NCBI GenBank assembly: GCA_015075075.1
Contig: JABTVA010000006.1
Span: forward strand, 62,001 to 126,000
Length of the DNA stretch: 64,000 nucleotides
Direction of reading: 5' to 3'
From: Deltaproteobacteria bacterium
GTDB lineage: Bacteria; Desulfobacterota; GWC2-55-46
This document shows, in pieces, positions 47,445 to 64,000 of the stretch. The notes below the pieces were generated by a model. That model was not told where the DNA came from. It searched no databases and saw only the letters and a program-made list of their open reading frames with translations. The translations under genes were made by a program, and so were the position numbers. Each line of letters opens with the position of its first letter. Position 1 is the stretch's first letter.

Positions 47445-48130
47445 TGAGGTCATAGAGAATAATAGCGGGCAAAACGGAAAACCCGCGCGGGGATACGGGG
47501 CCTTAACAAGTCTTACGCGCAGGGCAGCCATTCCGGTCCCTCAGGTAGAACCTCGATATCGAAAATGCCGGGTTTATGGCGCTCATGGGCCCCTCGGGCT
47601 CGGGGAAGAGCACGCTACTTAACCTCATAGCCGGAATAGACCGGCCTGACAGCGGCACGATCGAGATGGGCGGCACGAGGACCATCTCTCGCCGAGTCCG
47701 AGCTCGCCTCCTGGCGCTCGGACCACGTAGGCTTCATATTCCAGTTCTACAATCTCATGCCGGTCTTACCGCGCTTGAGAACGTCGAGCTTCCGCTCCTC
47801 CTTAAGGACATGCCCCGGAAAGAGAGGCGCGAGAGGGCCGGGATGCTCCTCGGGCTCGTGGGCCTCGCCGAGCGCCTGGACCATTACCCCGGCGAGCTCT
47901 CGGGCGGGGAGCAGCAGAGGGTCGCCATATCGAGGGCCATGGTCACGGACCCGACCATACTCGTGGCGGACGAGCCGACCGGCGACCTTGACATGGAATC
48001 CGCGGAAGAGGTGCTGCGCCTCATGGAGAGGCTCAACATGGAATTCGGGAAGACCATAATACTGGTCACGCACGACCCCAAGGCCGCCGGGAGGGCGCGC
48101 ACCGTAAGGCGCCTCGAAAAGATTACCTCA
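47445..48130 (+). pseudogene. LolD/MacB-type ABC ATPase with indels
   Basis: From about 47510 the protein reads LNKSYAQG, then MALMGPSGSGKSTLLNLIAG (Walker A). After a frame change near 47690 it reads SWRSDHVGFIFQFYNLMPVL. A further frame holds [17 protein letters not shown] (signature) and [18 protein letters not shown] (Walker B). A stop-free H-loop, IILVTHDP, completes it. Two or three single-base indels would restore a normal subunit of about 230 residues. The start is unclear. Confidence 0.82.
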
Positions 48131-49271
48131 ATGCCTGCTCGTCTTGCTCCCTCTTTAGAAACGCCTTCCGCCACAGGCTCCGCACCATGCTCACAGTCCT
48201 CAACGCCGCAAATCCGCTATACTATCCTTCGGGCTCCTCCGGACGGTAGTGGACGCCTGGTACGCGGGGGTAGAGGCCTCGGCGGCCAACCGGCTCATAA
48301 CCCGGAACGCCATCTCACTCTCCTTTTCGCTCCCTCTCTCATATTACGAGAAGATACGCCAGGTCGACGGGGTCGAGAAGCTCTCTTACGGCAACTGGTT
48401 CGGCGGCGTATACGGGGACGAGCGGAAGTTCTTCGCGAACTTCGCGATGCAGGCGGAAAGCCACCTCAACATAGTGACCGAGCTCGTCCTCTCCCCCGGG
48501 GACAAGGCCGCGTACCTGAAAGACAGGAAAGGCGCGATAGCCGGGCAAAAGCTCGCCGAAAGGTTCGGCTGGGATATCGGAGATACCATAACGCTCAAAG
48601 GCACGGTCTTCTCAGGCGACTGGGACTTTACGCTCAAAGGCATATACAGGGGGCGGGACGACACCGTTGACGAGAGCCTTTTTTTCTTCCACTGGGAATA
48701 CCTGAACGAGACCCTTGAGGCGCAGAGCCGATGAGGGCCGGAAGGGTGGGCTTCTACCTCGCGGAGATCGAAAGGCCAGAGCTCGCGGCCGTTGTCTCGG
48801 GCCGCATAGACTCGCTCTTCGAGAACTCCCTTGCGGAGACGCTCACCGGGGACCGAGCGCTCAACGGATGAGTTTCGTAAGCATGACGGAGGCGATAATG
48901 ACCGCGATCCGGCTCGTCTCGGTGGTGGTCATATTCATAATCATGGCGGTCGTGGCGAACGATGCGTATTGCTGTCGAGCGCGCGGGCAGGTTCGCGGTC
49001 ATGAAGGCTGGGTTCGGCGCCGGGCATATAACCCTCCTCGTATTGGAGAATCGCTCGCCATCGCCGCCCTGGCGGCGCCGTACGTAGGCCGCCCTCACCC
49101 TTCCCCGCCGCCTCTTTTTCATGGGCCGAACTCGGGCGGTGCTCCGGTATTCATCATAAAGCCCGCGACCTTCTGGCTGGACGCGGCAGCCGCCTGATAG
49201 TCGCCGCCGCAGCGCGGTCGTCCCCATACAGGGCCCTCGACCGTCCCGCAACCGCCGCCCTGGAAGGGTAG
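48131..49271 (+). pseudogene. FtsX-like ABC permease 1, indel-damaged
   Basis: The start [14 protein letters not shown] (48145-48200) leads, after a frame change, into an intact stretch of about 160 residues (VVDAWYAGVEASAANRLITR to YLNETLEAQS). The C-terminal membrane part reads MTEAIMTAIRLVSVVVIFII and VMKAVGFGAGHITLLVLG across frames. The end near 49271 matches FtsX tails. It is the first of two tandem permeases after the ATPase. The stretch at 48960-49270 is the most damaged. Confidence 0.75.
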
Positions 49272-49278
49272 TATAGCG

Positions 49279-50434
49279 ATGCCTGTACCGCTCATACACA
49301 GCCCCTCAGTCGCTCCGCACAGAAAGCTCACGACGGCCCTCACCGCCGGCAGCCCCCTCGTCGTCTCGTCTCGCCGCGATAACGATGCTGTGCAGATCGA
49401 GGCTAAGCTCATCGAGACCGGCTCGAAAGATAATATGATAGTCGTAAGGAAGGGTGCGCCCTCAGAGGTCCAGAGCACGATAACCCGCGACCAGCCGCCG
49501 CAAATCGGTCCTCCCCGGGGTCCTGACAGGCCCCGGCGGGATGAGGCTTGCCGCAAAAGAGATAGTCGTCCTCATCTCGCTACAGAAGCGCGGCACCGAA
49601 AGCCCCTCCAACGTGGTCATACGGGGGATATCGCCCGTTTCTTTCGGACTCAGGCCGCAGGCAAGGCTCGTCCAAGGCAGGATGCCGAGGCCCGGCACCT
49701 ACGAGATAATATCCGGGAAGGCGGTCTCAGCCAGGTTCAAGGGGGCGGGCATGGGGGAAAAGCTCTCATTCGCGATGAGGGAGTGGACGATCGTCGGCAT
49801 ATTCGACGCAGGCGCCACCGGGTTCTCCTCCGAGATATGGGGCGACGCCGACTCCCTCATGCAGGCCTTCAGACGCCCACTCTACTCATCAGTTGTCTTC
49901 AGGATGGAAGACCCGGAAAGGCTCGGTTCCATAAAGGCCGCGATAGAGGACGACCCCAGGCTCAGCCTCGACGCCAAGCTGGAGACGGACTTCTACTCGG
50001 AACAGTCCAGGGCCCTCTCCCTATTCCTCAAGGTGCTCGGCACAACTCTCACGGCCATATTCTCAATAGGGGCCATAATCGGGGCCGTGATAACGATGTA
50101 CTCGGCTGTGGCCGGGAGGGTCGGAGAGATCGGGACGCTCCGCGCCCTCGGCTTCGGCAGGACGAGCATACTCGCGGCCTTCCTCGCCGAGTCGCTCCTT
50201 ACAGGCCTCGCGGGAGGGGCAATCGGCCTCCTTGCAGCATCGTTCCTCCGCTTCCTCTCGTTCTCCACCCTCAACTTCCAGACCTTCTCGGAGCTGGCAT
50301 TCTCGTTCACCCTCACCCTGAGGACAGCCGTACTCTCCCTGACCGTAGCGCTCGTCATGGGCCTCGCAGGAGGGCTCCTGCCGGCCATCAAAGCCTCAAG
50401 GATGAAGATAACGGACGCGCTCCGGACCGGATAG
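49279..50434 (+). pseudogene. FtsX-like ABC permease 2, broken near its start
   Basis: Residues from MPVPLIHS, RRKLTTALTA-like and VETGSKDNMIVVRKGAPSEV to TITRDQ can be read between 49279 and 49520 with frame changes. From 49541 to 50434 the frame is intact. It holds the periplasmic domain and three C-terminal membrane segments with the FtsX motif VGEIGTLRALGFGRTSILAA, ending KASRMKITDALRTG. Together with permease 1 and the ATPase it forms a DevCA/MacB-like export system. An HlyD partner is not adjacent. Confidence 0.8.
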
Positions 50435-50448
50435 GCCGGCAAGACTTC

Positions 50449-50485
50449 TTGAGAGGACCTTTTTTGTAAAACGGGTCCTTCTCAA
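50449..50485. terminator. Possible bidirectional hairpin between convergent genes
   Basis: TTGAGAGGACC and GGTCCTTCTCAA pair with one bulge around a loop containing six T. It lies between the converging permease 2 and hyfI-like genes. No clear T tract follows the stem, so this is weak. Confidence 0.3.
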
Positions 50486-50501
50486 ACCCGGGCCGGACCC
50501 G

Positions 50502-51011
50502 CTATCCTTCGATCACACGGAGCAGGCCGTTCAGTATGTCCGAGGGGGTCGGGGGGCAGCCGTGTATGTACGCATCCACGGAAAGGACGCTCCCCACCCC
50601 GCCGAGCGAGGCGTAGGAGCTGCCGAAGACGCCGCCGTTATAGCCGCAGTCCCCCACGGCCACAACCAGCTTTGGCGACGGCATTGCGTCGTAGGTCCTC
50701 CGAAGCGGAACCTCCATGTTCCTTGAGACCGGCCCTGTGACGAGGAGGATGTCCGCGAACCTCGGGGAGGCGGTGAAGCTTATGCCGAAGCGTTCCGCGT
50801 CGTACACCGGGTTGCATGTCGCGCTTATCTCGAGCTCGCACCCGTTGCAGGAGCCAGCGTCGACCAGCCTGATTGCGGCGCTCCGCCTGAAACGCTTCCT
50901 TACGGCCTTTTCAAGACCGGCCCCGGCGAGAGTGACTTTCGCCTCCTCTGCCGGGTCCAGCGGCTCGGTGACAATCCCGGTCCTGAATATCTGGTGCAGT
51001 ATCTTCAGCAT
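50502..51011 (-). CDS. Small Fe-S subunit, HyfI/HycG/NuoB-like
   Basis: A 169-residue subunit that carries the [4Fe-4S] cluster (N2-like) at the membrane-arm interface. Cluster cysteines are complete: Cys55 and Cys58 (GSCNGCELE), Cys122 (GDCGYNGG) and Cys152 (HGCPPTP). It is the last gene of the six-gene hyf-like operon, 11 bases after the large subunit. A full set of Fe-S ligands beside a large subunit without Ni-Fe ligands implies that electron transfer is kept while hydrogen chemistry is lost. Confidence 0.92.
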   Translation of the reverse strand: MLKILHQIFRTGIVTEPLDPAEEAKVTLAGAGLEKAVRKRFRRSAAIRLVDAGSCNGCELEISATCNPVYDAERFGISFTASPRFADILLVTGPVSRNMEVPLRRTYDAMPSPKLVVAVGDCGYNGGVFGSSYASLGGVGSVLSVDAYIHGCPPTPSDILNGLLRVIEG

Positions 51012-51021
51012 GGCTTAAGCC

Positions 51022-52593
51022 TCAAAGGTCGTGACCCGAATATGACTGGTTGAAGCTCTTGTTGCAGAGCGGGAAATCCGGGACTATGTTTCCCTTTACG
51101 GCCTGCTCAAGCGCAACCCAGTTCATGGTCGATGGGTCGCGGACCATGCAGCGGTTAATGCCCCCTCCGGGCGCGCACTGCACCCAGTAGATGATCTCGC
51201 CCCGCCAGCCTTCGACCACGGAGAACCCGGACAGGCCCGAGAGCGGCCCGGACCACCCGGCCCGGACGCTCCCCTCCGGCATCTCCCTTATAAGCTCGCG
51301 TATGAGCCTCGACGATTCCCTGACCTCCTCTACCCTGACCCATGCCCTGGCGTGGACGTCGCCCGAAGAGAGCGCCGGGACAGTCGGCGGGAACTTGTCA
51401 TAAGGGGGGAAGGGGTTCTCTATCCTGGCGTCCAGCCTCTGCCCGCTCGCCCGCGCCGTGAAGCCCACGACGCCGAGGGCCTTTGCCGCATCCGGCTCCA
51501 GCACGCCGGCGCCGTATATCCTGTCCTCGACAGAGGGGTTGTCCTCGTATATCCTGACCAGCCTCTCGAACTCGATTGAAAGGACGTGCAGGTCGTCGAT
51601 GATTGCGACGAACGCGTCGTCGGACAGGTCCGCCGCTACGCCCCCGAGCGCGATGCCGTCCATCATGAGCCTGTGGCCGAAGACCTTCCGGTTGGTCCTC
51701 AGGACCCGCTCGCGGAGAGTCGCGAACTGGCAGTGCAGGAACGTGAACGCGATGTCGTTGCAGATGGCCCCTATGTCGCCCAGGTGGTTCGTTATCCTCT
51801 CCCTTTCGAGCATGATCGCCCTCAGGTGCCCGGCCCTGGGCGGCGGCACGCAGCCTGAGGCCGCTTCAACGGCCATGCAGAAGGCAATCGCGTGCGCGAC
51901 CGTCGAGTCCCCCGACACCCTGGCGGCCAGCCTTGCCGCCTCCTCCCAGCCCAGGGCCTCGAAACGCTTTTCTATGCCCTTGTGGACATAGCCGAGCTTC
52001 TCCTCGAGGTTTATTATGTCCTCGCCAACGGCCTGGAACCTGAAATGTCCCGGCTCTATGATGCCTGCGTGCACCGGGCCGACCGGTATCTCGAAAACCC
52101 CCTCGCCCTCGGCCGACACCCACCTGTAGGTCCCCTCCACGCGCCCGAGGGGCTTCGTCCCGTCAAACGACTTCCTCAGGGGGAAAACGCCCTCGGGCCA
52201 GTCCTCGTGCCTTATCCACGGCCTCGGGTCAGGGTGGCCGTCAGGCTTGAGCCCCATGAGGCTTGCGATCTGCCGTTCCATGCGGTACGCCGCCGGGAAG
52301 TGCCTGGTGAGCGTCGGGAATGCCGGGTCGTCCGGGGGGAGGAGGGACTTGATTACGATATGGTCGCGCCCCTCGATATACGCGGCATATACCCCGAAGC
52401 CCCGGCCGAACAAGGTCTCGTCAGAGGCCCATTCGGCTGCGAGCCTGAAGCCCGCGGCCTTGAGTATCTTCCCCGCGTCGGAGAAAAAGCCGGACGGCAC
52501 CTCGCAGGCCGCGGCCCCGCAGACCGAGGCGTCCATCGAGACGGCGCACCTTTCAAGCAGCTGCTTGAGTATGTCGTTGAGCTTCCCGTTCAT
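51022..52593 (-). CDS. HyfG/HycE-like large subunit lacking Ni-Fe ligands (Ehr-type)
   Basis: A 523-residue fusion of a NuoC-like N-terminal domain (to about residue 140) and a NuoD/hydrogenase-large-subunit domain. The start MNGKLNDILKQ overlaps the preceding gene in ATGA. Where [NiFe]-hydrogenases have RxCGxC, this protein has RVSGDST (225-231). Where they have DPCxxC near the C-terminus, it ends NKSFNQSYSGHDL with no such motif. It therefore cannot bind the Ni-Fe centre in the usual way. It matches the Ehr group (energy-converting hydrogenase-related complexes), whose substrate is unknown. Confidence 0.9.
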   Translation of the reverse strand: MNGKLNDILKQLLERCAVSMDASVCGAAACEVPSGFFSDAGKILKAAGFRLAAEWASDETLFGRGFGVYAAYIEGRDHIVIKSLLPPDDPAFPTLTRHFPAAYRMERQIASLMGLKPDGHPDPRPWIRHEDWPEGVFPLRKSFDGTKPLGRVEGTYRWVSAEGEGVFEIPVGPVHAGIIEPGHFRFQAVGEDIINLEEKLGYVHKGIEKRFEALGWEEAARLAARVSGDSTVAHAIAFCMAVEAASGCVPPPRAGHLRAIMLERERITNHLGDIGAICNDIAFTFLHCQFATLRERVLRTNRKVFGHRLMMDGIALGGVAADLSDDAFVAIIDDLHVLSIEFERLVRIYEDNPSVEDRIYGAGVLEPDAAKALGVVGFTARASGQRLDARIENPFPPYDKFPPTVPALSSGDVHARAWVRVEEVRESSRLIRELIREMPEGSVRAGWSGPLSGLSGFSVVEGWRGEIIYWVQCAPGGGINRCMVRDPSTMNWVALEQAVKGNIVPDFPLCNKSFNQSYSGHDL

Positions 52594-54041
52594 TTGACCA
52601 GCATCTCCACGGCCATATGGAACCATTCGCTCAGGAACCCGGGGAGGTAAAGCCCCAGGCCCAGCGCGAGGCCCATGTGCACAAGGACGGGCATATGCGA
52701 CGCCTTTATCGGCTTCTGCCAGGATGGCGCGTCCCCGAAGACCATGGGTATGACCCTCCTGAAGAGCGCCGCGAATGCCACGGCTATGCCGAGTAGGAAC
52801 AGCGGCACGAAATAAGGCGCGTCCTTTATGAGCGCCGTCAATATCAGGAACTCGCTCGTAAAGACGCCGAAAGGCGGCATGCCCGCGATGGCCGCCACCC
52901 CGAACATCAGCCCCCAGCCGACGAGCGGGTTGCCCTTGACGAGCCCGCCGATCCTGGATATGTCCTGGGTGGAATGCATCTGGGCGGCGTGCCCCACTGT
53001 GAAAAATATGGACGACTTCGTGAGGGAGTGCACCAGCATGTGGAGGAGCGCGCCGAACGTGGCCACCGGCCCTCCCAGCCCGAACGCGAAAGTAGCGATG
53101 CCCATGTGCTCGATAGAGGAGTACGCGAACATCCTCTTGACGTCCTTCTGCCTGAGGAGCGAGAAGGCCGCCACGAGCACCGATAGGAGGCCGAAGACCA
53201 TCATTATATACCCGGCCTTGTGGCTGTGCGTGGCGCCATCGACAAGCACCTTGCAGCGCACCAGCGCGTACAGGGCAACGTTCAGGAGAAGCCCGGAGAG
53301 GACGGCCGAGATGGGCGTGGGACCCTCGCTGTGGGCGTCGGGAAGCCAGTTATGGAGCGGCACCAGGCCCACCTTGGTCCCGTACCCGACCATGAGGAAT
53401 ATGAAGGCTATCGAGAGTACGGTGGGTTCGAGGCTCCCGGCGGCCGCGCTCAGGTTGGTCCACAGCAGCCCGTTCGAGCCCTCCCCGAATATCTTTTCCG
53501 CGGCGAAGTAGAGAAGGACCGTGCCGAAGAGCGCCTGTGCTATGCCCACGCCGCAGAGGATGAAATATTTCCAGGCCGCCTCTACCGCCGGGGGGGTCCT
53601 GTAGAGCGACACGAGGAGCACCGTTGAAAGAGTGGCGAGCTCCATCGCTATCCACAGCACGCCGATGTTGTTCGTAAGCAGCGCGAGCAGCATCGCGAAT
53701 ATGAAGAGCTGGAACATGGCGTGATAGAACCGCATACCCTTGTGGCCGATCTTCCCGTGGCGGCGCTCGTGGGCCATGTACCGCCTGCTGAATACCGCCG
53801 TCGTCATGGAGACGAAGGCGGTAAGGACGGCCAGGTAGACGTTGAAGGCGTCGACGAAGAAGAACCCGCCGCCTGCGACGAAGGGCCCTTCGTCATGGAC
53901 CCTGACAGCGAGGGCCAGGCTCGCGGCGAAGGTGGCGGCAGACCCGGCGATATTAAGCTCGGGCGCGAGCTTCCGGTCTCCCATGAAGGCCAGGACCGCC
54001 GCTGCCGCGAGGTTTATGACAAGAAGCGCTGTTATGATCAT
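52590..54041 (-). CDS. HyfF-like antiporter subunit
   Basis: A 483-residue membrane subunit of the NuoL/M/N-Mrp antiporter family with about 13 hydrophobic segments. The proton-channel region GLVPLHNWLPDAHSEGPTPI near residues 220-240 carries the Lys/His residues of this family. It is more like HyfF than HyfB in length. It probably pumps H+ or Na+ as part of the complex. It overlaps the large-subunit gene by four bases. Confidence 0.9.
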   Translation of the reverse strand: MIITALLVINLAAAAVLAFMGDRKLAPELNIAGSAATFAASLALAVRVHDEGPFVAGGGFFFVDAFNVYLAVLTAFVSMTTAVFSRRYMAHERRHGKIGHKGMRFYHAMFQLFIFAMLLALLTNNIGVLWIAMELATLSTVLLVSLYRTPPAVEAAWKYFILCGVGIAQALFGTVLLYFAAEKIFGEGSNGLLWTNLSAAAGSLEPTVLSIAFIFLMVGYGTKVGLVPLHNWLPDAHSEGPTPISAVLSGLLLNVALYALVRCKVLVDGATHSHKAGYIMMVFGLLSVLVAAFSLLRQKDVKRMFAYSSIEHMGIATFAFGLGGPVATFGALLHMLVHSLTKSSIFFTVGHAAQMHSTQDISRIGGLVKGNPLVGWGLMFGVAAIAGMPPFGVFTSEFLILTALIKDAPYFVPLFLLGIAVAFAALFRRVIPMVFGDAPSWQKPIKASHMPVLVHMGLALGLGLYLPGFLSEWFHMAVEMLVK

Positions 54042-54048
54042 GCGGCCG

Positions 54049-54714
54049 CTACTCCTCCTCCTTCAGCCTTTCCATGGCCTTGAGGTCGAGCGTGTCGAAG
54101 GTGGTGCGTATCTGGAAGAAGAATATGCCGAATATGAAGGCCGCGATAAGTATGTCGAGCGCGACTCCCAGCTCGACCACGAGCGGCATCCCGTAGGTTG
54201 CGCTGGTCGCGGCGAAAAAGAGCCCGTTCTCCATTGCAAGGAAGCCTATTATCTGGGTGACCGCCTTTTTGCGCGTGATCATCATGAGGAGCCCCAGCAT
54301 GATGGTCGCGAGCGCAACCGCGAGCGTTGAGCGGGTCACGAGGTCGGAAAGCTCCGTAATAGGCGCCGTCAGGTGGTACGAGAAGACGACGAGGGCTATC
54401 CCTATGAGCATCGTGGTCGGTATCCTGACCACCTCCTCGACCTCCCTGTGTATCTTAAGCCGGTGGATGAGCACGTAGAGTATGTACGGGAGCGCGATGA
54501 CCTTGAGGGAAAGTGTCAGGGCGGCGGATATATACAAATGGTGCAGCCCCGCGGAATATCCCACGACGGCCGCGCTTATGGAAAGGAGCAGCCCCTGCCA
54601 GGCGAATATGTGCAGGAGCCCGTATATCCTCCTCTGCACAAGGAGCCCGAACGAGGCAAGGAGTATGAGCGCCGCGAGGACGCTGTTTATCTGTGCTGCG
54701 AAACTTACCGTCAT
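54049..54714 (-). CDS. HyfE-like membrane subunit
   Basis: A 221-residue hydrophobic subunit from MTVSFAAQINSVLAAL at 54714 (GGAGTAGGCTT site). It has about seven membrane segments. The C-terminal part resembles NuoK (ENGLFFAATSATYGMPLVVE, with the membrane Glu). HyfE is a NuoK-like piece of hydrogenase-4-type complexes. It lies between the hyfC-like and hyfF-like genes. Confidence 0.88.
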   Translation of the reverse strand: MTVSFAAQINSVLAALILLASFGLLVQRRIYGLLHIFAWQGLLLSISAAVVGYSAGLHHLYISAALTLSLKVIALPYILYVLIHRLKIHREVEEVVRIPTTMLIGIALVVFSYHLTAPITELSDLVTRSTLAVALATIMLGLLMMITRKKAVTQIIGFLAMENGLFFAATSATYGMPLVVELGVALDILIAAFIFGIFFFQIRTTFDTLDLKAMERLKEEE

Positions 54715-54718
54715 AAGC

Positions 54719-55669
54719 CTACTCCAATATGAAAAAAGAGAGCATCCCGAGCGTGGCAAGCAGGAACGCGCTCCCGAGGAACTCCGGCACCCTGAAGAGC
54801 CGCATCTTGGCCAACCCGGTCTCCACGAGGACTATGAAAATGCCAATAAGAGCCAGCTTGGCCGCAAGGATGACGAAGGCCGGGGGGAGCATAAGCGGGT
54901 CGCCGTGCCCGGAGATGCCCCACGGGAAAAAGCACGCGATTCCGATGGACGAAAAAAGGAGGAGCTTCATCATTCCGGCCCACTCTATTAGCGCGAGGTG
55001 CCGCCCGGAGTACTCGAGTATCATGGCCTCGTGTATCATCGTGAGCTCGAGGTGGGTGGCAGGGTTGTCCACCGGCACGCGCCCGGTCTCGGCGACGGCT
55101 ATCAGTATGAAGGCCAGGAGCGCGAACGCGAGAGAGGGCCTCAAGACCAGCGGCGTCGAGGTGATAACGTGCGCCATCTGCGAAAGCGAGGTAGACTGGC
55201 TCGCCAGCGAAACCGTGAATATGGACATGAGCATCGCGGGCTCGGCAAGCGACGCCACCGTCATCTCCCTGCTGGAGCCCATGCCGCCGAAGGCGGTGCC
55301 GGTATCCATGGCCGCAAGCGCCAGGAAGAAGCGCGCGGTCGCGAAGAGGGCCACGAGCGCGATTATGTCGGCGGTTGCGCCAAGCGGGAGGTCGAACGAT
55401 ATGAGCGGTATCACGGCCCCCGCCATGAGAGTAGCCCCGAACACCACGTAGGGCGCGAACCTGAATATCCACGACGCGTTTTCGGCAAGGACGATGTCCT
55501 TTGAGAAGAGCCTCGCAAGGTCCCTGTATGGCTGCAGGAGGCCGGCTGTTCTCCTTCCCTGCATCCAGCACTTGAGGGTCCTCACCCAGCCGGTAAGGAG
55601 CGGCGCCCCAGCGACCACTATCGTCAGCTGTAGCGCCTGCATGAGCGCGGAATATACGTTTTCCATCAC
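54719..55669 (-). CDS. HyfC/HycD/NuoH-like membrane subunit
   Basis: A 316-residue NuoH-type subunit that anchors the Fe-S arm to the membrane arm. The motif AETGRVPVDNPATHLELTMI is the HycD/HyfC signature and EYSGRHLALIEW follows. It has eight or so membrane segments. The start overlaps the hyfB-like stop by four bases. Confidence 0.92.
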   Translation of the reverse strand: MMENVYSALMQALQLTIVVAGAPLLTGWVRTLKCWMQGRRTAGLLQPYRDLARLFSKDIVLAENASWIFRFAPYVVFGATLMAGAVIPLISFDLPLGATADIIALVALFATARFFLALAAMDTGTAFGGMGSSREMTVASLAEPAMLMSIFTVSLASQSTSLSQMAHVITSTPLVLRPSLAFALLAFILIAVAETGRVPVDNPATHLELTMIHEAMILEYSGRHLALIEWAGMMKLLLFSSIGIACFFPWGISGHGDPLMLPPAFVILAAKLALIGIFIVLVETGLAKMRLFRVPEFLGSAFLLATLGMLSFFILE

Positions 55670-57708
55670 GCGAACACCAGCAATGCGATAAGCGTTACGA
55701 ACGAATAAAGAAGGTATATCTGTATCCTGCCGTGCTGCAGCTTGCCGGCCTTCCTTGCAAGCCAGAACGAGACGTCCGCGGCAGGCTTATAGAAAAAATA
55801 CCATAGCCGGTCCCTGACCCTCAGCGTATAGGTGTATTTTCCCGGGAAGAACGCGGACGGGTGCTTTCCCGATGCGCGCGCTCCCTCCTTGATGCTGAAG
55901 AGGAAGCCGAATATCCGCCTTATGGGCATCGAAAAGGACGTGGCGTTGTACTGCATCCTGCTTGTCATCTTCTCGAAGCCGCAGTCCCAGGCGGGGGCTC
56001 TCCGTACGGCGGTCTTGCGCGCGTGGGCTACAATGTAAGCCGCGGCGATTGCTGCGCATATCCCCAAGAGCGCTATAGGGGCCGAGTACGAGGCCCTCTC
56101 GGCCGAAACCGGCGCGAGCCATATCCAGCTGAGGCCCCTGTGGACGTCCAGCTTCACACCGAGCATGGCCCCTGGGATCGAGTTCATCATGTCAATCATG
56201 AGGGTGGGAAACACCCCTAACGCGATGCACGCAAATGCCGTAAGACCCATCCCAGCCCTCATCGACCAGCCGACCTCGTGCACCTCGGTCTTATGGCGTC
56301 CCCGCCAGCGGCCGAGGAACACGACCCCGAAGACCTTGACGAAACAGGCGGCGGCAAGGACGCCTGTGAGCGCAAGCATCGCGGCCCCGAGCGGGATGAG
56401 GATGTTGAGGAGACGGCTCGGCAGCACAGGCGACAGCAGAAACGACTGGAAGGTCAGCCACTCGGAGACGAAGCCGTTCAGGGGCGGGAGGGCCGATATG
56501 GACAGGCAGCCCACGAGGAAAAGCGGCGCGGTCCACGGCATCCTGTGGATAAGGCCCCCCATGCCTTCCATGTTCCTTTGGCCGGTCGCATGGAGCACGG
56601 CGCCAGAGCCCATGAAAAGGAGCCCCTTGAACATCGCGTGGTTAAGCGTGTGATAAAGGCCCGCCGTAAGGGCGAGGGCGGCCATCAGGGGCATGTTGAA
56701 CGAGGTGAATATCATCGCGAGGCCTAGCCCGATGAGTATGATGCCTATGTTCTCGACCGAGTGGTACGCTAACAGCCTCTTAAGGTCGTGCTGCATGAGG
56801 GCGTACAGCACGCCCATCAGTGCCGATATCAGGCCGAGCGTCAACACGAGCCCTCCCCACCACCAGGCCGAAACAGGGAGGAGGTCGAAGGAAAGACGCG
56901 CCATGCCGTAGACGGCGGTCTTGAGCATGGCCCCGCTCATAAGAGCGGACACGTTGCTCGGGGCCGCGGGGTGCGCCTCGGGGAGCCACGCATGGAGAGG
57001 CACCACTCCGGCTTTTGCCGCAAACCCGAAAAACCCGAGCAGGAACGCCGCGGAGGCCCAGCCGCCCGATATGCCCGACTCCCTCATGGCCTGGAAGGTA
57101 TACCCCGAAAAATCCGTGAACCCGGCGGCGTTCCCGGCCAGGAGCCCGAATGACAAAAGTATCAGTATGGCCCCGATGTGGGCGATGAGCAGGTATATGA
57201 AGGCGGCCTTCCTGTTCTGCGGCCGCTCGTCCTCGAAGCACACGAGCAAAAACGAAGAGAGCGCCATGAGCTCCCAGGATACCATGAAGGAATATGCGTC
57301 GTCAGAAAGGAGGACCAGTAACATCCCGGCCATGAAGAGGCAGTAGAAGACCGCCAGGGGTGTGACCGAACGGCGGCCGATAAAGGACCGCACGTATCCG
57401 ATGGAGTATATGGAAACGCAAAAACCCAGGGCGGCGACCACCATGATAAAAAACCCGGAAAGCGGGTCCAGGCGCAGATAAAAGGGGAGGTCGGGGAGCC
57501 CTATGAGCAACTTCACCGATTCGGCGGCGCCGCCATAGAGCGCCGAGAGGCCCCCGGCAAAGGCCAGGAGAGAGGCAAAGGCCGAGGCGGCGAATGTGAA
57601 GGTGACGAGGTGCTTCTGTTTCGATGAGAGCAGCGGGGCCGCAGCCGATGCGCAGAGGAGGACAATGACCGAGGCGATCGAGAGGTCGAGGGGGGACTGC
57701 ATGTTCAC
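55666..57708 (-). CDS. HyfB-like antiporter subunit
   Basis: A 680-residue NuoL-like subunit and first gene of the operon. The antiporter core includes AKAGVVPLHAWLPEAHPAAP and the LKRLLAYHSVENIGIILIGL segment. The C-terminal extension (AWDCGFEKMTSRMQYNATSF) matches HyfB. An AGGGGAG site lies upstream of the start. Downstream genes overlap or are spaced within 11 bases, so all six are one transcript. Confidence 0.9.
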   Translation of the reverse strand: MNMQSPLDLSIASVIVLLCASAAAPLLSSKQKHLVTFTFAASAFASLLAFAGGLSALYGGAAESVKLLIGLPDLPFYLRLDPLSGFFIMVVAALGFCVSIYSIGYVRSFIGRRSVTPLAVFYCLFMAGMLLVLLSDDAYSFMVSWELMALSSFLLVCFEDERPQNRKAAFIYLLIAHIGAILILLSFGLLAGNAAGFTDFSGYTFQAMRESGISGGWASAAFLLGFFGFAAKAGVVPLHAWLPEAHPAAPSNVSALMSGAMLKTAVYGMARLSFDLLPVSAWWWGGLVLTLGLISALMGVLYALMQHDLKRLLAYHSVENIGIILIGLGLAMIFTSFNMPLMAALALTAGLYHTLNHAMFKGLLFMGSGAVLHATGQRNMEGMGGLIHRMPWTAPLFLVGCLSISALPPLNGFVSEWLTFQSFLLSPVLPSRLLNILIPLGAAMLALTGVLAAACFVKVFGVVFLGRWRGRHKTEVHEVGWSMRAGMGLTAFACIALGVFPTLMIDMMNSIPGAMLGVKLDVHRGLSWIWLAPVSAERASYSAPIALLGICAAIAAAYIVAHARKTAVRRAPAWDCGFEKMTSRMQYNATSFSMPIRRIFGFLFSIKEGARASGKHPSAFFPGKYTYTLRVRDRLWYFFYKPAADVSFWLARKAGKLQHGRIQIYLLYSFVTLIALLVFA

Positions 57709-61547: not shown

Positions 61548-64000
61548 TCAATCTGGCGGCGCCACGTCTATTACCATTGGCTTCAGGCAGTGTGTTTTGT
61601 CAGCAGGAATCAAAGTTTGAAGAGCTATCTCAAGCTCCTCCGCTGATGATGGCATGACAATCCCCTCAGGTGGTGAAGGTATGCGCCTCGTTCGTTTTTC
61701 ACCGAACCAAAAAACAACATAGATGCCATATCCTTGAGCTTCTGGATCACGCGTATATCTACCAAGCTGTCCTTTGCAGGCAGTCCAAGGTCCGGATGAT
61801 AATCGCGTTTGAGCTCAAGTGGCAACTTCAATCCAGAGGAAAGGAGTATAATATCAGCACTCTTATCAGCCGCCATATGCCCTTCAGGTTCAACTCGTAT
61901 TTCAAAAGGCAGGAAATATGGTTTCAGTAATTTATCAACCGGTCTCGACAAAATTCTTCAACTTGAGGCTTTTCGACACGACCAGACGTGCCACAATTCC
62001 AAAAGTTCTTGTATTTGTCAGTATTTGAATGCTGAATTTCCCTTTTTATCAATTCAAGCTGGTCAAGAGCAAGAGCATACAAATCCGCAATATTGGCAGG
62101 TTTGCCCCCGCGCAGTGTCTCGATTGTCTGATTCCATGATGGCTGTTTAAACTCAGCCTCCCTAAGAAGAGCCGCCTGATTAGCAATGGCGTGTTTCAGA
62201 TTGTCATGGTATGAAGACAATCTTTCATTATCCAAAAGACTGTTCAGCGCCTCCCAAGCCTCTCGCATAGCAATGCTTGAAAGTGCATCGATCTTCCCCC
62301 TTACAAACTCAGCAGCCTGCTTTTCAGCACTCAACTCTCCAAGAGGGGATACATTTGCATAGTTCTCTCCAAACCTCCTTATTAAAAATTCATACTGTCT
62401 AATGGTTAAAGGATACGGCCTTGAATCATCGATACTAGCATCCTCAATTATATTTTTTAATTCCCATAAGCACTGGTTATTTTTTCCTGAATATTTTTCG
62501 AGGATTGGTTGAAAATAATCGCAATCTAAAAGAAAACCTATTGCAAGCCAAATAGACCTTTGTTCTTTTTTAGTCTTACCACGAGTCCTGATAGTTCTCT
62601 GACACAACTCTAGTAAACCAGCATGACAATTCGAATCTGAAATCGCCGCAAAAACCAAATACCGAAGGTTTACTGGAGTTGCGCAAGGAAATTCTGCTAA
62701 AATTTTTAAAGCGAAATCACCTCGCCAGAGTTCATTTTCCTTACGTGAGAGCTTATAAAGGACTGAAGAATTTTTTATTTTATACTTAAGTTCCACCCTG
62801 ACAATATCTTCAAAAACACTTTGCGCCAAATCCGGTTTTTCTATATATATTTTTTGCCTCCAACCATTCGCCTGATCATTTTCATCAAAATCACATAAAT
62901 ACAATAGCGATATCGTTAAACCAGACCTAAGAAGTTCATCTGAAAAACAGGCAATCTCATTCTTTTCAATCCATTTTTCAGTTACTCCCGCAACAATAGC
63001 ACACCACCATCTACGTATTCTTTTTTTAACATATAACAAGGCCACTTCATTTTGAGTTGGAATATCATCCCTGCAAATGACTGCCCCGAATCCCTCAATA
63101 CCTGCTGATGTCAGTTCCTCCCCTATTTGGTCACGTATCCGCTCAATTGGAGTCAATTCTTTTTGAGATTCAATAAACAAACCAAAATAATGATACGCAA
63201 GCCAGCCAAGAGCACTAAGATGATGGCCCGACCTGATGGATTCTTTGTGTTCCGACAAATCTCTTGTTATTTGTCTTTTTCTAGCTTCTGTTTCACGTTG
63301 ATTTTTAGATTTTTCCTGGATGTTTTCAAGGTGCCATTCCTCTAAGACATTAAAACAATTCCTCGAACGAATTTGCTCTAATTTTTCATCGCCATTAGCA
63401 AAATTATAATATTCTTCGAATATATCATTACATTCAAAGATTATATTCCCAAAGACTTCATAGAGAAAATAATCCACTTTTTCAAATATCATCTTCTTAC
63501 GAAGTTTAGCCAAAATGTATGTGGCTAAAATATTATTCGGAAGTGAATGTCTTATAATGTTTTTGAATTTATATAAAAAATAACCACTCGGTTCGTCCAT
63601 ATTTGCTTTATTTAAAGCAAGCTCAAAGAAAGTTAACAATAATTGGGGGGCGTCTGATAGGCACTTCCCAATGGCTTTTCCATCAAATCCGTATGAATGA
63701 TGACAAAAATCGTATAATGCAGTGAGCCAATGCCATATGCGCTCTGGTTTTTCACTCAGTCCTGATTCGACAAAAAATTTAAGAAGCAAACGCGAAAACA
63801 CAGCCTCAACTTCATATCTATTACGTCTTAGAATTTTTTTATTTTTGGGGAGATTACAAAGAGAATCGAGAATACTTGGAATAGATTTGCACGGGAGGGC
63901 GTCGGCAAGCCAATAAAAACTACCGACTTCTAATTCACCTTGATTCCTGAGCACATCATTTAACAACAAAAACACATCTGCAGGCTTAAAATAATCGCCA
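61548..64000 (-). pseudogene. Large AT-rich protein with C-terminal PD-(D/E)XK-like motif (5' end outside window, two frameshifts)
   Basis: The frame is open at the right edge (DYFKPADVFLLLNDVLRNQG) and runs about 690 residues to a stop at 61924. It continues in another frame (LKPYFLPFEIRVEPEGHM) and, after a second shift near 61795, to the true end PMVIDVAPPD at 61548. Most of it is helical without recognised motifs. The C-terminal 120 residues hold ADIILL and LPLELKRDYHPDLW, a D...ExK arrangement as in PD-(D/E)XK nucleases. Base composition is strikingly AT-rich against the rest of the window, suggesting horizontal transfer. It resembles C-terminal parts of large defence-type proteins, but this is inference. 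The N-terminal domain that would decide is not in the window. Confidence 0.7.

Follow-up and report, generated by a model that had tools for sequence, protein, structure and literature searches.

Group 4-like membrane complexes without the cysteine ligands of the nickel-iron ([NiFe]) site have been described under two names. As Ehr, with a function reported as not known, they are described from comammox Nitrospira (PMC10284858), from Nitrospirales (PMC12342949), from Sulfobacillus (PMC4378227), from Riflemargulisbacteria (PMC6349859) and from Geobacter sulfurreducens (PMC7894505), and the hyfBCEFGI genes of Acidithiobacillus ferrooxidans were termed a 'non-hydrogenase' (PMC7735108). As Hyq, a complex encoded by hyqRBCEFGI in Azorhizobium caulinodans has been termed an endo-hydrogenase because of the behaviour of mutants (PMC2650096, PMC2930871, PMC3357923). 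None of the papers we consulted links these two literatures. Here we analyse a six-gene operon, B-C-E-F-G-I, on a 64,000-nucleotide stretch of DNA (hereafter the window; contig JABTVA010000006.1, positions 62,001 to 126,000) from the metagenome-assembled genome (MAG) of a Deltaproteobacteria bacterium. The encoded complex belongs almost certainly to the Ehr/Hyq family, of which it is an ordinary member. In its large subunit, the region of the [NiFe] site is replaced by motifs that are nearly invariant across the family.

The large subunit G (51022-52626, minus strand; 534 residues as listed) is a fused NuoC plus NuoD/HycE-like protein with 32% identity to HyfG and 25% to NuoCD. All four [NiFe] ligand cysteines of the RxCGxC and DPCxxC motifs are gone from it. 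RVSGDST (residues 236-242; 51901-51921, minus strand) stands in place of RxCGxC, while the DPCxxC region is replaced by NKSFNQSYSGHDL (residues 522-534; 51025-51063, minus strand), which closes with NQSYSGHDL (526-534) and is directly followed by the stop codon. In an alignment of 105 non-identical large-subunit orthologs, the first motif has the consensus R-[VI]-S-G-D-[ST]-T-V-[AG]-H, with G239 and D240 present in all 105 sequences, S238 in 103, T242 in 102 and a serine or threonine at position 241 in 101. The second reads N-K-S-x-N-x-S-Y-[SA]-G-[HN]-D-L before the stop codon; N522, K523, S524, Y529, G531 and D533 are found in every ortholog, N526 in 104 and S528 in 103. No cysteine of the large subunit is invariant across these orthologs. 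Mean column entropy amounts to 0.51 bits at the first site and 0.34 bits at the second compared to 1.45 bits for the whole protein. Both sites are therefore far less variable than the protein background, which argues that the pocket is used. The alignment indicates that, under strong selection, a cysteine-free polar pocket took the place of the [NiFe] site, which has not decayed. Because the same replacements are found in 105 orthologs, a sequencing error or a pseudogene is ruled out.

Every ortholog terminates at the same point, whereas HycE and HyfG run 32 residues further as a C-terminal tail. This end point corresponds to the known HycI cleavage position of the hydrogenase precursor and also coincides with the end of NuoCD. 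The site is not simply of the NuoD type, because the columns that hold the quinone-headgroup Tyr and His in NuoD are occupied by Gly239 and Ile190 in G.

The ancestry of G was addressed by fold and by phylogeny. An AlphaFold model (mean predicted local distance difference test 83, predicted template modelling score 0.87) finds its best structural match in HycE of formate hydrogenlyase (7z0s_E; Z 42.2, root-mean-square deviation 2.1 Å over 481 residues), followed by NuoD/NuoCD/Nqo4, and there is no solved Ehr-family structure among the matches. Sequence profiles likewise place HycE (317.6 bits) ahead of MbhL (195.5), Nqo4 (175.9) and MbsL of the archaeal sulfane sulfur reductase MBX/MBS (6u8y_L; 125.8). 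For a large-subunit tree, we removed the N-terminal ligand columns and the C-terminal motif from the alignment. In this tree, which has a small reference set and two flagged long branches, the BCEFGI large subunits form one clade (support 92/97) with the rhizobial hyq-type members inside. This clade lies beside the [NiFe] proteins HyfG and HycE and apart from Nuo.

The six open reading frames (ORFs) are intact and lie on the minus strand from 57708 to 50502, joined by 4-base overlaps or short gaps; reading of the sequence reveals zero Ns across them. Pfam and NCBIfam scans identify HyfB, NuoH-type, HyfE-like, HyfF, NuoC plus NuoD-type and NuoB-type proteins, with HyfB and HyfF above their cut-offs. 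The two antiporter-like subunits are B, a HyfB/EhrA/HyqB-like proton-channel subunit (55666-57708, minus strand, 680 residues; NF005086, 820.7 bits for a cut-off of 667), and the HyfF-like F (52590-54041, minus strand, 483 residues; NF005045, 757.4 bits for a cut-off of 543). The HyfC/NuoH-like C (54719-55669, minus strand, 316 residues; PF00146, 7.6e-39) is the membrane anchor beside the former active site. The HyfE-like E (54049-54759, minus strand, 236 residues as listed) scores 91.7 bits with NF008556, under the cut-off of 136. Based on the reading of the junctions, E probably starts at ATG 54714, giving 221 residues, the usual length of its orthologs. A start of G at ATG 52593 also appears more likely; G would then have 523 residues and overlap the stop codon of F by 4 bases. 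The NuoB/HyfI-like small subunit I (50502-51011, minus strand, 169 residues; PF01058, 1.1e-29) ends the operon, and direct reading of the sequence finds a possible intrinsic terminator 3′ of it (50468-50501, minus strand; CGGGTCC...GGACCCG with a 16-base loop, then TTTT).

In the small subunit, the cluster cysteines C55 and C58 (CNGC), C122 and C152 are each kept in at least 95% of 100 orthologs, and one [4Fe-4S] cluster is predicted to be bound there. In the membrane arm, conserved Glu and Lys residues of B (E146, K232, K310 and E416, at least 95% in 56 orthologs) and of F (E134, K223, K302 and E397, conserved in 101 orthologs) fall at channel positions common to Nuo and Hyf, and five acidic residues of C (E143, D201, E208, E214 and E219) are conserved. 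The retention of these channel residues makes ion pumping by the membrane arm likely.

An earlier note on this DNA, made from the sequence alone, had described an Ehr-type complex with six intact and tightly coupled subunits, a small subunit that retains four cluster cysteines, a large subunit with RVSGDST for RxCGxC and without DPCxxC, and an operon with neither a ferredoxin-type (HyfA/HycF) subunit nor HyfD. Our data bear out this description, the Ehr-type identity being backed by the ligand-less large subunit, the four-cysteine small subunit, the BCEFGI order and the clade support. Alignment with related families finds the ligand cysteines replaced across the 105 orthologs and kept in HyfG/HycE. 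The model of the single G chain has a HycE-like fold, with low confidence around the pocket. Beyond the note, the site proves to be rebuilt into an invariant motif that ends at the HycI cleavage point, in a large family that has already been described as both Ehr and Hyq.

Formate hydrogenlyase and hydrogenase-4 (E. coli hyf and hyc; Azospirillum B510 plasmid) share with the window complex the fold, the fused large subunit and homologs of B, C, E, F and I. They keep RVCGIC, DPCYSC and the cleaved C-terminal tail, none of which is present in the window complex. These systems also have the iron-sulphur subunits HyfA/HycB and HyfH/HycF (with HyfD in hyf) and the HycI/HycH/Hyp maturation genes, which the window operon lacks. 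With the core of complex I (NuoB, CD, H, L and M), the window complex shares core folds, pump residues and the C-terminal end point. It differs from complex I in the quinone Tyr and His, in lacking NuoE/F/G/I and separate A, J, K and N subunits, and in its small subunit, which has CxxC where NuoB has CC. Neither an NADH module nor NuoI is present in the window operon, and separate NuoB/NuoD loci are found elsewhere in the same genome.

The six genes of Azorhizobium Hyq match those of the window operon in kind and order; hyfA and hyfD are likewise absent, and HyqG is without CxxC. The pocket motif is shared by rhizobial orthologs, with Rhizobium and Bradyrhizobium proteins serving for this comparison in place of the Azorhizobium sequence itself. 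Unlike in hyqRBCEFGI, no adjacent hyqR-like gene was recognised at the window operon, and while Hyq is under NifA control and tied to N2 fixation, the window genome has no nifH above cut-off. With Ehr (Geobacter sulfurreducens GSU0739-0745, Nitrospira, Sulfobacillus and Acidithiobacillus hyfBCEFGI), the window complex has in common the group-4-like subunits, the missing [NiFe] ligands and the antiporter-like subunits. The same motif is found in orthologs from Geobacteraceae and Nitrospirota MAGs, used here in place of the named Ehr proteins. We found nothing that sets the window complex apart from Ehr; the Geobacter cluster counts seven locus tags compared to six window genes.

Large-subunit orthologs are present in 27 of 59 related genomes with 60-71% identity, and one scan of public genomes returned at least 588 relatives. 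The 80 kept of these include Nitrospirota, so-called Deltaproteobacteria, Methylococcales, Zetaproteobacteria and Burkholderiales, and relatives are also found on rhizobial and Azospirillum plasmids. The BCEFGI order is retained in most loci with enough flank. Two loci from Nitrospirota MAGs (L070:6180-11997 and L080:6264-11512) have no B and C just upstream and carry an extra gene between F and G, which in L070 encodes an F5/8 type C domain protein. In divergent relatives from Variovorax (L139:13074-20358), Burkholderia multivorans (L141:4333-11761) and Caballeronia (L140:9001-9660), the small subunit is extended by a fused 2x[4Fe-4S] ferredoxin-type domain. The Variovorax and Burkholderia large subunits are also without [NiFe] ligands (VGDSS...SYCGNDL and VSGVDS...TIAGCAR, respectively).

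We surveyed 10 kb on either side of around 85 operons. No ferredoxin, formate dehydrogenase (FDH), dehydrogenase or other electron-transfer gene is recurrent in these flanks, and the search for an electron donor in the gene neighbourhood was thus negative. HyfA, HyfD and HyfH are likewise not recurrent beside these loci, and none of them is encoded in the window operon. The recurrent neighbours are mainly regulators (HTH+PTS_EIIA, XRE-cupin), SulP, DUF2490 and two-component systems. For example, a regulator with HTH_17 and PTS EIIA-2 domains is found directly upstream of the operon in several Nitrospirota (L073:3756-4640; similar in L037, L045, L060, L072, L078, L084 and L089). Several loci from Methylococcales and one from Nitrospirota have a gene for a SulP-type anion transporter directly upstream of B (L098:2740-4647, with a 4-base overlap; L092, L094, L095, L096, L107, L111 and L055), and a SulP gene is also found near the operon in a Thiomargarita (L112). 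The best PDB match of the L098 protein is the SLC26/SulP transporter 6ki1, the bicarbonate transporter BicA. These neighbours may point to a link to bicarbonate or sulfate.

FdhA (TIGR01591) is above cut-off in only 1 of the 59 relatives, and the window genome, which is 93% complete, has only weak FdhA matches, the best of them NuoG-like. Similarly, nifH is above cut-off in just two of the 59, G006 and G054. Formate and N2 fixation therefore do not explain the family in these genomes, and N2 fixation was rejected as a general role.

We also asked how Ehr relates to nickel maturation. HypD is unlinked to Ehr in the relatives (21 of 27 genomes with Ehr, 24 of 32 without), and elsewhere it is found in 37 of 45 Ehr-bearing genomes, making it common but not universal. 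Six Ehr-bearing MAGs (G017, G024, G078, G085, G088 and G102) yielded no HypD and no [NiFe] large subunit. MAG gaps limit this result; for four of these genomes no completeness estimate is available, and that of G024 is 82%. Some MAGs without HypD (G008 and G018) still hold a hydrogenase large subunit the size of those in group 3, so that the lack of HypD in these MAGs may be a gap. The window genome itself carries a hyp cluster (L130:8484-14665; G000:C2) with a probable HyaD/HycI-type peptidase. In genus relatives, such a cluster occurs together with a hydrogenase large subunit of around 430-460 residues, the size expected for group 3. No [NiFe] large subunit was found in the window MAG, which reflects either a gap or a loss.

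Elsewhere in the window (47576-50434), a gene for a MacB/LolD-like ABC ATPase precedes fragments of permease sequence that lie in different frames (48249-48734 and 49541-50434); the first permease looks broken. At the far end (62001-64000), G+C content falls from around 0.56-0.63 to 0.37, and an ORF of 683 residues is found at 61924-63975. This stretch looks like a recent acquisition.

From sequence and model, we describe the complex as a minimal-complex-I-like membrane assembly, with B and F as putative channels, E, the anchor C, the large subunit G and the small subunit I. Our preferred reading, which we hold tentatively at a probability of about 0.4, is that of an ion pump with one [4Fe-4S] cluster working between a soluble low-potential carrier and quinone, both partners being inferred. 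Electrons would enter the single cluster of I directly from a carrier of the ferredoxin or flavodoxin type, which would dock on the complex itself because there is no HyfA or HyfH. A membrane quinone, most likely bound at the rebuilt pocket of G, would exchange electrons with the cluster, and the redox reaction would drive ions outward via B and F. Running in reverse at high membrane potential, the complex would make low-potential reductant. The position of the rebuilt pocket is that of the quinone-reduction site of complex I. The HycE- and NuoCD/Nqo4-like fold, the retained cluster cysteines and pump residues, and the six MAGs in which no HypD or [NiFe] large subunit was found all support this reading. 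A diffusible donor fits the lack of recurrent dehydrogenase or ferredoxin genes in the operon flanks, and the small subunits fused to a 2x[4Fe-4S] domain fit a ferredoxin-type entry of electrons.

Several observations weigh against a carrier-to-quinone pump. The quinone-headgroup Tyr and His of NuoD are replaced in G as described above, and confidence in the AlphaFold model is low at residues 166-215 and 528-534, the very segments that surround the pocket. Ehr-bearing Riflemargulisbacteria are without recognised quinone pathways (PMC6349859), and we found no biochemistry in the literature for any Ehr or Hyq member. Moreover, hyq mutants lose both H2 uptake and H2 evolution despite a HyqG free of the ligand cysteines (PMC3357923), phenotypes that a ferredoxin:quinone pump explains poorly. 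The proposal in the earlier note that an electron reaction of unknown kind is probably coupled to ion pumping is supported: pump residues and cluster cysteines are retained and pumping is likely, with the donor and acceptor named here as candidates.

The same note implies that the complex is not a hydrogenase. We find this likely, but the in vivo reports on Hyq, whose large subunit is also without the ligands, amount to measurable hydrogenase activity (PMC3357923). In Azorhizobium, whose hyqRBCEFGI holds the same six-gene set, deletion of hyq causes around 15-fold more H2 loss in diazotrophic culture, nodules of a hup hyq double mutant evolve H2 at 27 compared to around 0.3 µmol per g per h, H2 evolution in a nifK hupSL strain that retains hyq reaches around 56,600 pmol per 1e9 cells per min at <1 µM O2, and H2 recycling stays intact after deletion of the entire hup/hyp operon (PMC2930871, PMC3357923). 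HyqG is without both CxxC motifs, and its own authors leave the catalytic site unassigned (PMC3357923). These phenotypes speak for an H2:quinone oxidoreductase without nickel-iron that splits or makes H2 at a non-canonical site and needs no Hyp proteins, and an ortholog of the Rhizobium leguminosarum type (L120, 504 residues) shares the pocket motif and the clade with the window protein. Nevertheless, all Hyq data were obtained in vivo, the enzyme was never purified, and the hyq deletion removed the regulator hyqR too, so that a third hydrogenase was possibly affected in the mutants. Ehr is also uninduced by H2 in Nitrospira moscoviensis (PMC12342949). Cysteines are reported at positions 258, 491 and 497 of HyqG (PMC3357923). 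Their counterparts, at 259, 491 and 497 in L120, are kept in only 90, 96 and 7 of the 105 orthologs, and we rejected them as metal ligands. We know of no chemistry by which a cysteine-free site of this kind would handle H2. We consider nickel-free H2 chemistry in the window complex unlikely. A broader proposal, that Ehr and Hyq including the window complex form a fourth class of hydrogen-converting enzyme, with H2 oxidised or formed in the cysteine-free pocket at or near the small-subunit [4Fe-4S] cluster, no nickel-iron, no need for Hyp proteins, and direct coupling to the quinone pool and the ion pump, strikes us as quite improbable.

The SulP genes directly upstream of B, together with an Acidithiobacillus caldus hyf cluster that adjoins a carbonic anhydrase gene (PMC3826726), would suit a role in inorganic-carbon or anion uptake, in which the ion module powers bicarbonate transport or is itself coupled to CO2/HCO3- conversion. 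We think this improbable: most operons, that of the window included, have no SulP beside them, a motif scan of the operon flanks found no beta-carbonic anhydrase or RuBisCO, and there is no DabA/Cup-like subunit. Delivery of formate electrons by an FDH encoded elsewhere has been proposed for Riflemargulisbacteria and Saganbacteria (FDH-Ehr; PMC6349859), and Geobacter sulfurreducens has higher levels of its Ehr proteins when grown on formate (PMC7894505). Given the scarcity of FdhA in the relatives, the weak matches in the window genome and the lack of a recurrent FDH gene beside the operons, it is rather improbable for the complex studied here. Could the catalytic part be purely structural or regulatory, and the complex a non-redox ion antiporter? 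The retained antiporter-like subunits and the lack of a dedicated donor or acceptor gene would agree with this, but conservation is among the strongest at the cluster cysteines and the former active site, and an idle redox part would not keep them so; we regard such an antiporter as very unlikely. Finally, the overall homology to HycE/HyfG would be expected of an ordinary [NiFe] hydrogenase, misread by sequencing error or using other nickel ligands. That explanation is hardly credible in view of the shared replacements in 105 orthologs, the absence of any invariant large-subunit cysteine and of a maturation tail, and the six Ehr-bearing MAGs in which our searches recovered no HypD and no [NiFe] large subunit.

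Ehr complexes are thus present in hundreds of genomes, among them Nitrospirota, Methylococcales, Zetaproteobacteria, rhizobia, Burkholderiales and others. Because no reaction is assigned to Ehr, metabolic models lack what is probably a respiratory ion pump in major groups. One literature treats Ehr as a non-hydrogenase of function not known, the other describes Hyq with strong H2 uptake and evolution in vivo. Our comparison of sequences indicates that the two deal with a single family whose pocket is nearly invariant, and joining the two literatures makes the question of what this family does sharply testable.

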